Below, piece by piece: positions 33,185-38,200 of a DNA stretch of 42,170 bases (the first letter of the stretch is position 1; the number at the start of each line of letters is the position of its first letter). This stretch comes from an uncultured Saprospiraceae bacterium (GTDB lineage: Bacteria > Bacteroidota > Bacteroidia > Chitinophagales > Saprospiraceae): positions 1 to 42,170 of the forward strand of contig CALDUE010000148.1 of NCBI GenBank assembly GCA_937923485.1, read 5' to 3'. The position numbers were made by a program, and so were the translations under genes. Under the pieces are notes generated by a model. It ran no database searches. It saw nothing but the letters and a program-made list of their open reading frames with translations, and was not told where the DNA came from.

Positions 33185-34267
33185 CTAGCCTTCAAGATTT
33201 GCTTCTCTCACTGCCTGCCACACATGCTCTAGATCAGCAGCAGTGTATGGCTGTTGACTCTGGTGAAGAAGACGCACCGCTACCCCAGACCCGACATGCT
33301 CATAGCTCTGGTCGGGATGAGCCTTTGCAAGGAGGGCTTTCGGGAGACCTACCGATTCTGTTTCGTAAGCGTGCGTCGTACAAAGAATCGAGAAATATCT
33401 TTTGTAGTTAAAACTATAGAAGTGACAGGCCCAATACGGTCGACGATTTGCACGCGTCTCTGTGATACAAAATGGCAATTGTTCTCGACGTAGCCATTGT
33501 AAACTTTGCTGAGAAACCCCGATATAATATTTCGGTTGAAGGCGCAAAGAATAACTCATGTTGAGCTGCGAAAACAGGTCATCGTACTCCTTCATCGCCT
33601 TGCGCATGTGCGCATCGGGAAGTTCGCTCGCATCCATTTCAGCCAAGGGATACCAAAGCTGTGAAAGGTCATCAAACGCTTCAAGTGCACCGACACGACG
33701 CTTGTATTCGAAGATATCGTTGCCTGGCACGAGGTACCCCGAATAGTGATACGACAGGTCCCAAACCTTGCACTGCTCCACTTCGAGGGCGAGCGTATAC
33801 AAGCCCATCGAAAAGTGCTTGTAGGCAGGGTCAAAAAAACCGCACAAGCTCTGCACCGTCTCTGAGCCGAGGTCGAAATAAGAGAATGCTACAAGCTTAT
33901 CGTCATCAAACACACTGATCTGCCAAGTATTAAATGGCGCATCAGGATCGGCGCGCAAATAGGACGCAGCGGTATCGTGCAGGTCGTAATCCTTTTCTAG
34001 CGTGTAGGCGTGAAAGACACGTTCTTCAGCCAGTTCAGCACGCGCCTTATGAACTTCAATGGTGAAGCGTTCGCCGTTTTTACGCAGCAACTTTTTAACC
34101 CGTTTTGATGGCTTGTGGCCTTCCAGCGGTAGTCTGGTCCAAACAGTAGTCAGAAAACCCCAGGGGTAGAAATTGTAGCGACAGGTGAACATGCGCGATC
34201 CCATTCGGTACCAGCCACTGGCTAGGTATCGGTCGAGAAGTTTGCCTGTAAATCCTTTCGAAACCAT
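33185..34267 (-). CDS. Arginyl/leucyl-tRNA--protein transferase-like (Ate1-type) protein
   Basis: The 360-residue product reads YLASGWYRMGSRMFTCRYNF at its N-terminus, then LPLEGHKPSKRVKKLLRKN. A GNAT-like core has VFDDDKLVAFSYFDLG, GFFDPAYKHFSMGLYTLALE and WDLSYHYSGYLVPGNDIFEYKRR. The G-Y-x-x-P-x-x-x-x-F-x-Y-K arrangement is the hallmark of the Ate1/Bpt C-terminal domain. Family members move an amino acid from tRNA to protein N-termini, creating degrons. The extra C-terminal 100 residues are unassigned, and the usual N-terminal CxxC cluster is missing here, so the exact reaction is uncertain. Confidence 0.75.
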   Translation of the reverse strand: MVSKGFTGKLLDRYLASGWYRMGSRMFTCRYNFYPWGFLTTVWTRLPLEGHKPSKRVKKLLRKNGERFTIEVHKARAELAEERVFHAYTLEKDYDLHDTAASYLRADPDAPFNTWQISVFDDDKLVAFSYFDLGSETVQSLCGFFDPAYKHFSMGLYTLALEVEQCKVWDLSYHYSGYLVPGNDIFEYKRRVGALEAFDDLSQLWYPLAEMDASELPDAHMRKAMKEYDDLFSQLNMSYSLRLQPKYYIGVSQQSLQWLRREQLPFCITETRANRRPYWACHFYSFNYKRYFSILCTTHAYETESVGLPKALLAKAHPDQSYEHVGSGVAVRLLHQSQQPYTAADLEHVWQAVREANLEG

Positions 34268-34601: not shown

Positions 34602-34605
34602 ATGA
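34525..34605 (+). CDS. Possible 26-residue basic leader peptide coupled to gluconokinase
   Basis: An ATG at 34525 opens a 26-codon frame (MKILKKLRRTDSS then PKTKHHLKGPKI). Its TGA overlaps the gluconokinase ATG as ATGA. The overlap suggests coupling, but so short a frame may be chance. Confidence 0.3.
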   Translation: MKILKKLRRTDSSEPKTKHHLKGPKI

Positions 34606-35198
34606 ACATCCTCACCATGGGCGTCAGCGGCAGCGGCAAAAGCACGATCGGTAAAAAAATAGCCGAACATTTTGACCTTCCTTTCATTGAAGGCGATGAC
34701 TATCATCCCGCTGCCAACGTGGCTAAAATGGAAGCGGGAAAGCCCCTAAATGATGAGGATAGGCAGCCTTGGCTCGAAGCCTTGGGTGAGGTTTTGGCGA
34801 AAGCTGAAAGCGGGGCTGAAAGCCCACGTGATAGCGGGGCCGAAAGCCCACGTGAAAACGGGGCCGAAGGCCCACGTGATAGTGGGGCCGAAAGCCCACG
34901 TGATAGCGGGGCTGAAACACAAAAAGGAGCCGTGCTGGGATCATCTGCACTCAAAGAGGCATACCGCGACACCCTTCGCAAACCGCTGAAAGGCGAGCTC
35001 CATATCATCTTTTTAGACGGAAGCCGTGAAGTCCTTTTGGATCGCTTACAGTCCCGCAAAGACCACTTTTTTCCGCCGCATTTGCTCGACTCCCAGTTGG
35101 AAACCTTAGAACCTCCCCAGGACGCAATTCGTATTGATATAGACCAATCCATTGAGGAGATTGTAGCTGAGGCTGTGGCCGCTTTGTCTGGCAATTGA
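34602..35198 (+). CDS. gntK: Gluconokinase with in-frame repeat insertion
   Basis: The 198-residue protein has the gluconokinase P-loop MGVSGSGKST, then FIEGDDYHPAANVAKMEAGKPLNDEDRQPWLEAL, the family's gluconate-binding segment. SSALKEAYRDTLRK and IIFLDGSREVLLDRLQSRKDHFFPPHLLDSQLETLE follow. It phosphorylates gluconate to 6-phosphogluconate in the cytoplasm. About 36 residues (GAESPRDS-type repeats, residues 71-106) interrupt the usual spacing between the two halves; normal family length is about 165. The insert lies in a surface region near the lid and probably does not abolish activity. GntP lies at 10.8 kb. Confidence 0.93.
   Translation: MNILTMGVSGSGKSTIGKKIAEHFDLPFIEGDDYHPAANVAKMEAGKPLNDEDRQPWLEALGEVLAKAESGAESPRDSGAESPRENGAEGPRDSGAESPRDSGAETQKGAVLGSSALKEAYRDTLRKPLKGELHIIFLDGSREVLLDRLQSRKDHFFPPHLLDSQLETLEPPQDAIRIDIDQSIEEIVAEAVAALSGN
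34791..34804 (-). repeat. Iterated 14-base motif, GCTTTCGCCAAAAC form
   Basis: Exact GCTTTCGCCAAAAC on the minus strand, in the gluconokinase gene (read VLAKA), directly in front of the 24-base repeat array. Confidence 0.85.
34812..34919 (+). repeat. 24-base tandem repeat array inside gluconokinase
   Basis: Four full units (34812, 34836, 34860, 34884) and a half unit encode GAESPRDS, GAESPREN, GAEGPRDS, GAESPRDS and GAET. Units differ at only one to four bases. Each holds CACGTG and a small hairpin such as GGGCT-GAA-AGCCC. Confidence 0.92.
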
Positions 35199-35280: not shown

Positions 35281-38200
35281 ATGCGTTACCTGAATATACT
35301 GCTCATACTTCTGTTACCCATATTGATGTCAGCGCAAGTCGCAGACCCAAGTAAGAACGGGCCTGATAAACCAAGGTCTGAAGTAGCCAAATTCGACTTC
35401 CAGCACGAGGAAGGTCATATCGTTTTAAAGCCTAAGACGCAAGTAGCTGTCGCTGATTTTTTTCCAGCTTTCGCCAAAACGCTTCGCACGGATGCGCACA
35501 GTTCATGGATAGCGGGGACTGTTACGGGAGGTGCGTCACCACAAGCACTTTCACACCATAGATTTCAACAGCATTTTGATGACATTCCAGTGCTTGGAGC
35601 GACCATAGTACTGCACGCAAAACAGGGCTTGGTATCCTTTGCCACAGGAAAGAGCTATCCACGACAAGCCTTGGAGACTAGTCCTCGAATCAGTGAAAAT
35701 GAAGCCATCCGCAAAGCCATCTCTGCTTTCACGGCATGGAGCGCGCGACAGCAAGCGCATCCGCTAGAAAATGATTTTACGGGAAGACCACTGCGCGTGG
35801 AGCTTGTTTCAGACGTGCGATCTACCATAGACGAAACTCGACTCGTTTATTTGGATCGTCAATATCCGAGCTATACAGGAAGCCTTTTACTGGCTTACGA
35901 AATTGAAGTTGGACCAGGTGCGGCACGTCGGGCTGTGTATATCGACGCCCTTTCGGGAAAACTGATCACCTCCATACCCTTGGTTGCGCATGCGACTGTA
36001 CCGGGCACGGTGGAAACAGGATACTACGGTACGCAAAACGTAATGGTCGAAGAGAATGGTACCAACGGTTATCGCTTGGTGGATTCAACACGAGGTGTAG
36101 TTGTGCTCAATGATCAGGGTCGAGAGATCACAAATACAACGGTTGATTTTCCTCTGCGCTCAGGTAATAAAGGCGGAATGGCTAATGATGTGTTTTATGG
36201 CAGTTCGCGCTTTTATGATTTGCTCAAAGACAAGTTCAGCTGGCTTGGTGTAGATGGCGAAGGCGAGTTTTTCGTTTCCAGCGTTTCGGATGGAGATAGA
36301 GATTTGGTCAACGCCTTCTGGAATGGCAGCCGTGCGACCTTTGGTGGTGGAAGTTGCCACTATGATCCTTTGACTACACTAGATGTTGTTGGACATGAGT
36401 TTGCGCACGGCATCACCCAGCGCACGAGCGACTTGGTCTATTCTGGTCAATCAGGAGCGCTCAACGAAGGAATGAGTGACATATATGGAAAGGCTTTAGA
36501 ACTGTACGAACAGCCAGATCAATTCAACTGGGTATTGGGAAACCGATTTGCTGATAGCGAGTACGCAAGACCTTTCCGCTCGATGGAAGATCCAAATCTT
36601 TATAATAAACCTAAAGTAGTTGGCGGTGCATTTTGGAATGACGGCGCGGGTGTACACACAAATTCAGGTCCGCTAGGACATTGGTTCTATTTACTCATCG
36701 AAGGTGGCAGCGGCATGAATGACCTAGGTACTGCTTTTGATGTGCAGCCTGTAGGTCTCGACATTGCCTTCGATGTTGCTTTTCAACTTAACCGCGATTA
36801 CCTCACTGAGAGTTCTGGCTATCAAGATGCATTTACAAACTGCATGCTTTTGGTCGAGTCAGCCTACGGGATCAATTCTGATACCTACGAAAGTTTTGAG
36901 GAAGCGTGGAAGGCTATCGGACTGCCTGCTTCGGGAACCACAGAACCACCATCAGGTGTGGATCTTGCCGTTTTTAGCTTCAATTCTAGCGATCCTAGAT
37001 ACTGCCACCCAACAGATTCCGTAGAATTGATAGTGGTGCTCTCAAACAGAGGCGATGACGTCCTTGCAGGAACTTCCTACACTTTGACTGCGACAATTGA
37101 CAATGAGACCAGTGTAGTCACGCGGACATTTGAGGAGGATTTCCTGAGAGGAGAGCTAGACTTCCTGAATGTCTTGTTTCCAATCAACCTCGTTCCAGGT
37201 GAGTATTTGGCAACAGTAACCGTCGATATTGACAATGACATAGACTTGGATAATAACAGCGGTTCACAAACTGCTTTTTATTTACAGGCTCCTCATGTGA
37301 TTGAAATCGATGGGATCATTTTAGAGGATTTGGATTGCTTCGACGACGAGCGAGAAATCGTAGTCAATCTCCTTAATCGAGGATGTGAGACGTATGCAGG
37401 ACCTGTAGTCATCGATATTTTTGATGCGGATAGCACTATATTAAAGACCATCAATACTGGTAATAGGATTTTAACTCCGGGGGAGGGCGGTCAAATGTTT
37501 GTAACCCTAGTCATCGATTACGACGAGCTTGAAGGTGCTGTTGGCCTACGCTTTGATGTACCGAACGATCCAATTCCTGAAGACAACATCGTGAGTGCGC
37601 AGCTTGGACGACCGAGAGTATTAACCAACACTGGATTCGTCCAATTTTCCGATAGTGATGCTGAACGTTTTGTGTCTCTTGATGATTCGCGCGGGCACAT
37701 GGGGGTCGTAACAGAAAGGAATCAGGATTGGCTGGGAACTACAGGTTACTTCACCAACCCCTTTCGTTTGGCTTGCCTTGAAACAGAGACAAACTTGGAC
37801 GTCGCTTTCGACTTGAGTATCACAGAGATGTGCGTTGATTTTGAAGCAGAACCTGCTCCGAAGCTCTCGTTCGACCTGTTGCAATTCTATGGAGACGGTG
37901 ATCCTGACTTTCCAGGGCTTGCAGATTTCAGCCGTGGCATGTCGGTGTCAACGCCTACGCTTACGTCTTCTATGCCTGTGTTCCTCGACTCTAGACCCGA
38001 CGGCATCTCAAGCAATGTAGAAGTAGAGTTACCTGCGAATCATAGAGGCTTGGTACGTTTTACAATGTACAATGCTTCTGGAAGTCCGACAAACTGGCAA
38101 AATTCAGATCCACTCTTCGAGACCTATGATTATACGTTCATCAATAACATCCGTTTGGCTGGCGTGTCGAGTGTCAGAGAGCTGACCGTTGAGTATTCCA

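Follow-up and report, generated by a model that had tools for sequence, protein, structure and literature searches.

The DNA stretch analyzed in this work (hereafter the window) is a 42,170-nucleotide contig of an uncultured Saprospiraceae bacterium. On its plus strand lies a gene for a 198-aa gluconokinase of the GntK/IdnK type (34602-35198), whose product matched TIGR01313 in two stretches (170.5 bits; cut-off 113.75), and the relatives found in PDB likewise matched in two stretches, skipping an insert. At this place the reading frame contains an in-frame tandem array (34805-34917), composed of a 12-bp half unit TGAAAGCGGGGC (34805-34816), four full 24-bp units (34817-34840, 34841-34864, 34865-34888, and 34889-34912), and the start of a further unit (TGAAA; 34913-34917). 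TRF delimited exactly the same region (period 24, 4.7 copies, 87% matches, score 177), and the best score obtained in 1000 dinucleotide shuffles of the gluconokinase ORF was 49, so the head-to-tail copies are beyond chance. The translation, GAESPRDS-GAESPREN-GAEGPRDS-GAESPRDS-GAE, together with the TRF score, confirms the description given in the sequence-only reading, i.e., about four and a half copies of an eight-residue GAESPRDS unit. Directly 5' of the array there is a copy of an iterated motif, GTTTTNGCGNAAGC (34791-34804), recognized by its sequence, the near-copy counts, and the sample consensus. It was previously stated that this motif ends seven bases before the array; the adjacency is real, but the seven bases (TGAAAGC) are the start of the partial unit, and the array is in register from 34805, immediately after the motif end at 34804. 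Further downstream, a weak feature (35326-35363, plus strand) in the N-terminal part of the next gene, encoding an M4-type protease, possibly represents a decayed motif followed by a decayed unit: it scored 16.2 bits with the unit profile, under the reversed-control maximum of 18.3, and at the matching place the congeneric genome has the motif GTTTTGGCGCAAGC. On the minus strand, the region 33185-34267 encodes an arginyltransferase C-terminal domain protein (ATE_C above the cut-off; the arginyltransferase equivalog cut-offs were not reached).

Gluconokinase matches were found in 16 of the 60 genomes searched, i.e., the own genome (G000), its congener (G001), which together represent the genus, and 14 others. 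Three of the latter (G015, G018, and G042) were left out of the alignment; the proteins of G015 and G018 also matched in two halves, without the insert region, and the match in G042 covered residues 2-38 only. In the resulting 13-sequence alignment the insert is present in both congeners and absent from all 11 gluconokinases of other genera, which agrees with the earlier statement that the family has none; thus the array is not fixed among relatives. The GVSGSGKST P-loop and the invariant family columns are kept in the protein encoded in the window. The AlphaFold model, built from the same 13 sequences, had a mean pLDDT of 86.2 with a confident core, while residues 71-110, located between a helix (51-70) and a strand (110-113), formed a loop with block means of 43-68. 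The multiplied units in this sugar-kinase gene are probably a floppy and harmless loop, and an insert that is disordered and has no required function is, as a part of the best overall explanation, slightly favored. Among the homologs, one reading frame (L046, genome G003) fuses gluconokinase to 6-phosphogluconate dehydrogenase, and similarly long gluconokinase frames (632-659 aa) were noted in G017, G018, G025, and G052.

The motif at 34791-34804, GTTTTGGCGAAAGC, is one copy of a genome-wide iterated motif. The pattern TTTTGGCGAAAGC, with at most one mismatch, occurs 1089 times in the 3.31-Mb assembly vs. 8 times for the reversed pattern, and 14 of such copies are localized in the window (e.g., at 2165, 31673, 34792, and 35467). 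The 155 sites found in a 421-kb sample yielded the consensus GTTTTgGCGaAAGC, followed by a weak T-G-A-A, and 137 of them lie inside ORFs, which matches the expectation from a coding fraction of 91%. Among 277 sites, seven neighboring pairs were less than 60 bp apart (five inverted and two in the same direction); some inverted pairs sit between genes. In exact 13-mer form, the motif occurs 521 and 559 times in the two congeneric genomes and 226 to 360 times in single genomes of three other genera; it is less frequent elsewhere, and 97 of 298 genomes of the family lack it. The motif core is common to several Saprospiraceae genera and the flanking bases are genus-specific, which recalls the dialects of DNA uptake sequences; this is an analogy, and the motif is termed uptake-like only. 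The 3' end of the motif is d(GCGAAAGC), and GNA/GNNA loops on G-C stems are extra-stable DNA mini-hairpins, with d(GCGAAAGC) among the first described (PMC4686876). The motif hairpin folded as DNA gave only -0.6 kcal/mol (z -1.64).

The unit found in gluconokinase is not confined to this gene. In the two genomes combined, it was also detected on the AAGC side of the motif in genes encoding a thioredoxin-like protein, acetate kinase, LigA, and an M43-type protease, where a GNAT gene ends, and in two intergenic gaps (rpoB-rpoC and rpsO-pnp), the gap copies being present in both species. The LigA, protease, rpsO-pnp, and first rpoB-rpoC copies were found with a motif-containing pattern (39 matches in G000 and 36 in G001, mostly weak; 9 and 10 in the control), so they are no test of anchoring. 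Such a test was provided by a motif-free array pattern, which gave eight matches at three loci of the whole own genome (gluconokinase, thioredoxin-like, and the 3' end of the GNAT gene) and none in the control. The motif lies directly before the array at all three loci, and among 298 genomes of the family this pattern matched two. Furthermore, a unit profile (threshold 19 bits; reversed-control maximum 18.3) applied to 766 kb of G000 indicated 13 positions, each of which starts no more than 13 bp from the end of a motif or belongs to an array begun there, and it added a second rpoB-rpoC unit and an in-frame copy in acetate kinase (VLAKAPRGARGSTGSGAK). In 290 kb of G001, seven positions exceeded the threshold: three at the motif (LigA, thioredoxin), three at a decayed motif (gluconokinase), and one without it (carboxylesterase). 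Outside the profile-scanned stretches, or at their cut ends, lie the units of the protease and the rpsO-pnp gap and, in the congener, those of rpoB-rpoC and C279. Within the genomes sampled, the unit is restricted to the genus.

The exception mentioned above (L110:1294-1317) is a lone unit-like 24-mer, matching 19 of 22 defined positions, in the carboxylesterase frame and 209 bp off a motif; the G000 ortholog differs at this place. It is either a chance resemblance or a motif-remote copy. As for the opposite relationship, most motif copies have no unit, and both single-copy and multi-copy unit sites exist. In 749,511 bp of G000, 31 of the 244 motif copies without mismatch are followed by YGAA, therefore suitable targets are common.

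The unit, YGAARGYCCACGTGNNARCGGGRC, is an imperfect hairpin with the 24-bp consensus YGAA-RGYCC-A-CGT-GNNA-RCG-GGRCY, in which RGYCC-A-CGT-GNNA-RCG-GGRCY forms a stem-loop. Folded as DNA, unit 1 alone gave -5.4 kcal/mol (z -2.21), and the motif with the whole array gave -28.7 kcal/mol (z -3.71; none of 200 shuffles was as good), so the hairpin pointed out in the sequence-only reading was recovered, as was CACGTG, which can be read off all four full units. The thioredoxin array, folded in the same way, was not significantly better than shuffles (z -1.26). Pairing of the stem across 24 units reached 87.4% of cells vs. 84.5% in shuffles, and covariation reached 0.231 vs. 0.180, in both cases beyond any of 500 shuffles, and two of the five covariation measures were unexceptional (65/500 and 227/500 shuffles). 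This alignment contained 24 units, and the one used for the profile scan contained 19, the 23-bp units being left out. At columns 7-23, a C-G pair is replaced by T-A in the thioredoxin units only, which may reflect a single event.

In-frame palindromic inserts were thus found in several conserved genes (gluconokinase, thioredoxin, LigA, acetate kinase, and M43-type protease), and this raises the question of whether the repeat is a protein module, with GAESPRDS being functional in these proteins. The related peptides in gluconokinase, thioredoxin, LigA, and the M43-type protease (diverged in acetate kinase) would fit such an assumption. However, coding units are 24 bp long, whereas the period is 23 bp for the copies in the rpsO-pnp gap of the congener, and the GNAT array starts at the stop codon; a protein-level origin is therefore unlikely, given such noncoding copies. 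Moreover, the common frame follows from that of the motif, which is read as VLA(K/Q)A or VFAKA at all five coding unit loci (28 of the 137 motif copies in coding DNA use this frame); read in one of the other sense frames, a unit would start with a stop, as judged by eye. Substitutions that change the peptide (A/T, S/G) preserve the DNA stem. All this makes a protein module a very improbable explanation.

Comparison of the two species provided further data on how the copies arise and vary. In gluconokinase, the congener has three units at the place of four in the own genome, and its array adjoins a decayed motif, in which inspection by eye shows changes at 4 of the 12 defined bases. The mean identity of units is 21.5/24 within the array of the window, 18.4/24 to the congeneric array at the same place, and 20.8/24 to the LigA unit of the congener. 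The higher identity within the array than to its counterpart suggests that it was likely expanded or homogenized after the split of the species, which is in line with the recent expansion proposed earlier; exchange of units between loci is possible as well. In thioredoxin, there are four units in G000 (the last one diverged) vs. two in G001. Since arrays are present at the same place of both genes in the assembly of the congener, an assembly artefact, another explanation considered at the outset, is unlikely. A filled and an empty site were found in the M43-type protease gene, i.e., AAGCCGAA-CCCCATG in G000 and AAGCCGAA-GACCCTCGTCATAACGGGGCCGAA-CCCCATG in G001, which differ by an exact 24-bp unit bounded by GCCGAA repeats. 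In the empty allele, no nearby sequence could have supplied the unit. This pair is unpolarized, as loss of a unit from G000 by deletion between the GCCGAA repeats would leave the same pattern. In G001, the GNAT ortholog carries the motif without the unit, and no alignable downstream sequence was seen there. An ortholog of LigA was not found in G000 (assembly about 85% complete), nor one of acetate kinase in the G001 stretches searched.

Taken together, these results point, with a probability that we put at roughly 55%, to the gluconokinase array belonging to a dispersed DNA repeat that is restricted to the genus, is anchored to the iterated motif, and was expanded in tandem. According to this reading, the unit would land at the motif via short homology, expand afterwards, and be tolerated as a disordered loop. 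We infer a process of motif-to-motif copying, slippage, and selection for tolerated sites, in which the motif would provide homology upstream, while GCYGAA, found at the unit's end and behind many motif copies, would provide microhomology downstream. Template switching or short-patch recombination might accomplish the copying, and the uptake of motif-bearing DNA may assist it. Short-patch double illegitimate recombination is one candidate mechanism. Once a second copy is present, slippage could expand and homogenize the array, perhaps with the aid of hairpins, which might assist slippage or copying here. Purifying selection would then hold coding copies at 24 bp and in the hydrophilic frame (G-A/T-E-S/G-P-R), near termini or in surface loops. 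Neither a mobilizing enzyme nor a movement event was seen for the unit.

The possibility that slippage promoted by the motif created the array locally, as a plain minisatellite, was suggested by the sequence-only reading. Several observations fit it: the array abuts the motif, the species differ in copy number, the units are homogenized within the locus, and they form hairpins. It does not explain, however, why unrelated loci carry the same unit, why single-unit sites exist, or how the empty protease allele could have been filled in the absence of a local source. Since the unit is common to unrelated loci and the empty allele has no source for it, slippage accounts for multiplication (or loss) of units and not for their origin; sole origin by slippage at the gluconokinase locus was rejected on these grounds. 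Furthermore, only one of 53 TRF rows in the 421-kb sample is directly adjacent to a motif (the two next closest are 16 and 28 bp away), and the three units of the congener stand beside a decayed motif. In samples of three other motif-rich genera (G110, G181, and G155; 43 motif sites, 216,555 bp), no TRF array lay directly at a motif; the nearest, of period 9/18, was 17 bp away in G155, and other arrays were found at 51, 62, and 72 bp. Of the proposed connection between motif and array, the link itself stood, and the role of the motif as a slippage promoter was not supported as stated. Slippage as the origin of the unit is improbable and largely refuted, and it stays a likely cause of the changes in copy number.

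Two further explanations involve the hairpin. A REP-like element could have been moved by a RAYT-type Y1 tyrosine transposase preferring the motif as its target, and this is consistent with the presence of Y1_Tnp genes in both genomes (5 matches in G000 and 6 in G001) and with the unit being a short palindrome, REPs inside genes being described (PMC3733652). Nevertheless, the unit was found at none of the 10 Y1 loci examined (of 11 matches, in two incomplete assemblies), where the best scores of 13-16 out of 22 correspond to the background; its ends bear neither the GTAG nor the CGTC tag (24 units, by eye), and two Y1 loci carry another hairpin, GTCCTGCGGATT. We consider this scenario unlikely, and it is more plausible than the idea that the motif and unit form a functional DNA or RNA element under selection at every site, e.g., as a hairpin for protein binding or RNA processing. 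The latter could be argued from the conserved stem, the presence of copies between rpoB and rpoC and between rpsO and pnp in both species, and the very high stability as RNA (-63.2 kcal/mol, z -5.62). Against it stand the decayed copies, the majority of motifs without a unit, and the scattered positions (inside reading frames, behind N termini, at a stop codon), which show no obvious common regulatory place; moreover, a search of the window segment 34300-35500 against Rfam found nothing at E values up to 1, so a known RNA family for the array was rejected. Selection for such an element at every site seems improbable.

Setting the preferred reading, a motif-anchored dispersed repeat, beside known systems, the unit is RPE/REP-like in behavior, yet without a REP tag or a flanking RAYT found, and far shorter than RPEs. 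Rickettsia palindromic elements, like the unit, lie in frame in conserved genes as well as between genes, and one tested host protein, guanylate kinase, is described as remaining active (PMC2229807); they are, however, 105-146 bp long, whereas the unit is 23-24 bp, forms tandem arrays, and lies beside an iterated motif. With REP/BIME the unit shares the form of a short dispersed palindrome, sometimes clustered in tandem and sometimes intragenic (PMC3733652), and it differs from REPs with RAYTs by lacking the end tag and being absent from the Y1 loci examined. PARCEL elements are portrayed as seemingly mobile intragenic tandem repeats with DNA dyad symmetry (PMC2996958); the 25-residue amphipathic motif that they encode lies in ORFs of unassigned function, in contrast to the eight hydrophilic residues in housekeeping proteins, and the noncoding copies, found here.

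As regards the motif, DNA uptake sequences reach hundreds to thousands of copies, mostly genic, with some intergenic inverted pairs (PMC2346458). The motif resembles them in abundance and placement, and it is likewise strongly over-represented genome-wide (1089 copies vs. 8 in the control). To our knowledge, there is no described unit attached to uptake sequences. HIP1 of cyanobacteria is, similarly, short and strongly over-represented in a clade (PMC4390886), but it has another sequence and is a perfect palindrome (GCGATCGC).

In the open-licence literature searched, no description of the motif or the unit was found. The new part is the anchoring of the unit to the motif, the mechanism being inferred. 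A more general proposal, which we put forward tentatively and regard as less probable than the reading of the array itself, is that an iterated uptake-like motif could act as a genome-wide landing pad, at which a 24-bp hairpin lacking its own transposase would spread between loci by short-homology recombination, seeding new in-frame minisatellites in conserved genes. If units do move to motif sites, such motifs would be more than DNA tags, as they would supply homology for the spread of short sequences and for new loops in essential enzymes. This would bring together clade-wide iterated motifs and short intragenic repeats, which are usually studied separately, and offer a testable account of how minisatellites are born, starting with a lone unit at a motif, as in LigA and the protease, and leading to arrays like those of gluconokinase and thioredoxin.

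Other repeats were also noted in these genomes. The hairpin at two Y1 loci (L175:2100 and L176:1148, one per genome) is nearly identical in both, has a 12-bp stem (GTCCTGCGGATT...AATCCGCAGGAC), and is perhaps the own REP-like repeat of those loci. Longer tandem repeats of the own genome include L098:15593-16061 (period 117 bp, 4.0 copies) and L101:12185-12910 (period 351 bp, 2.1 copies).
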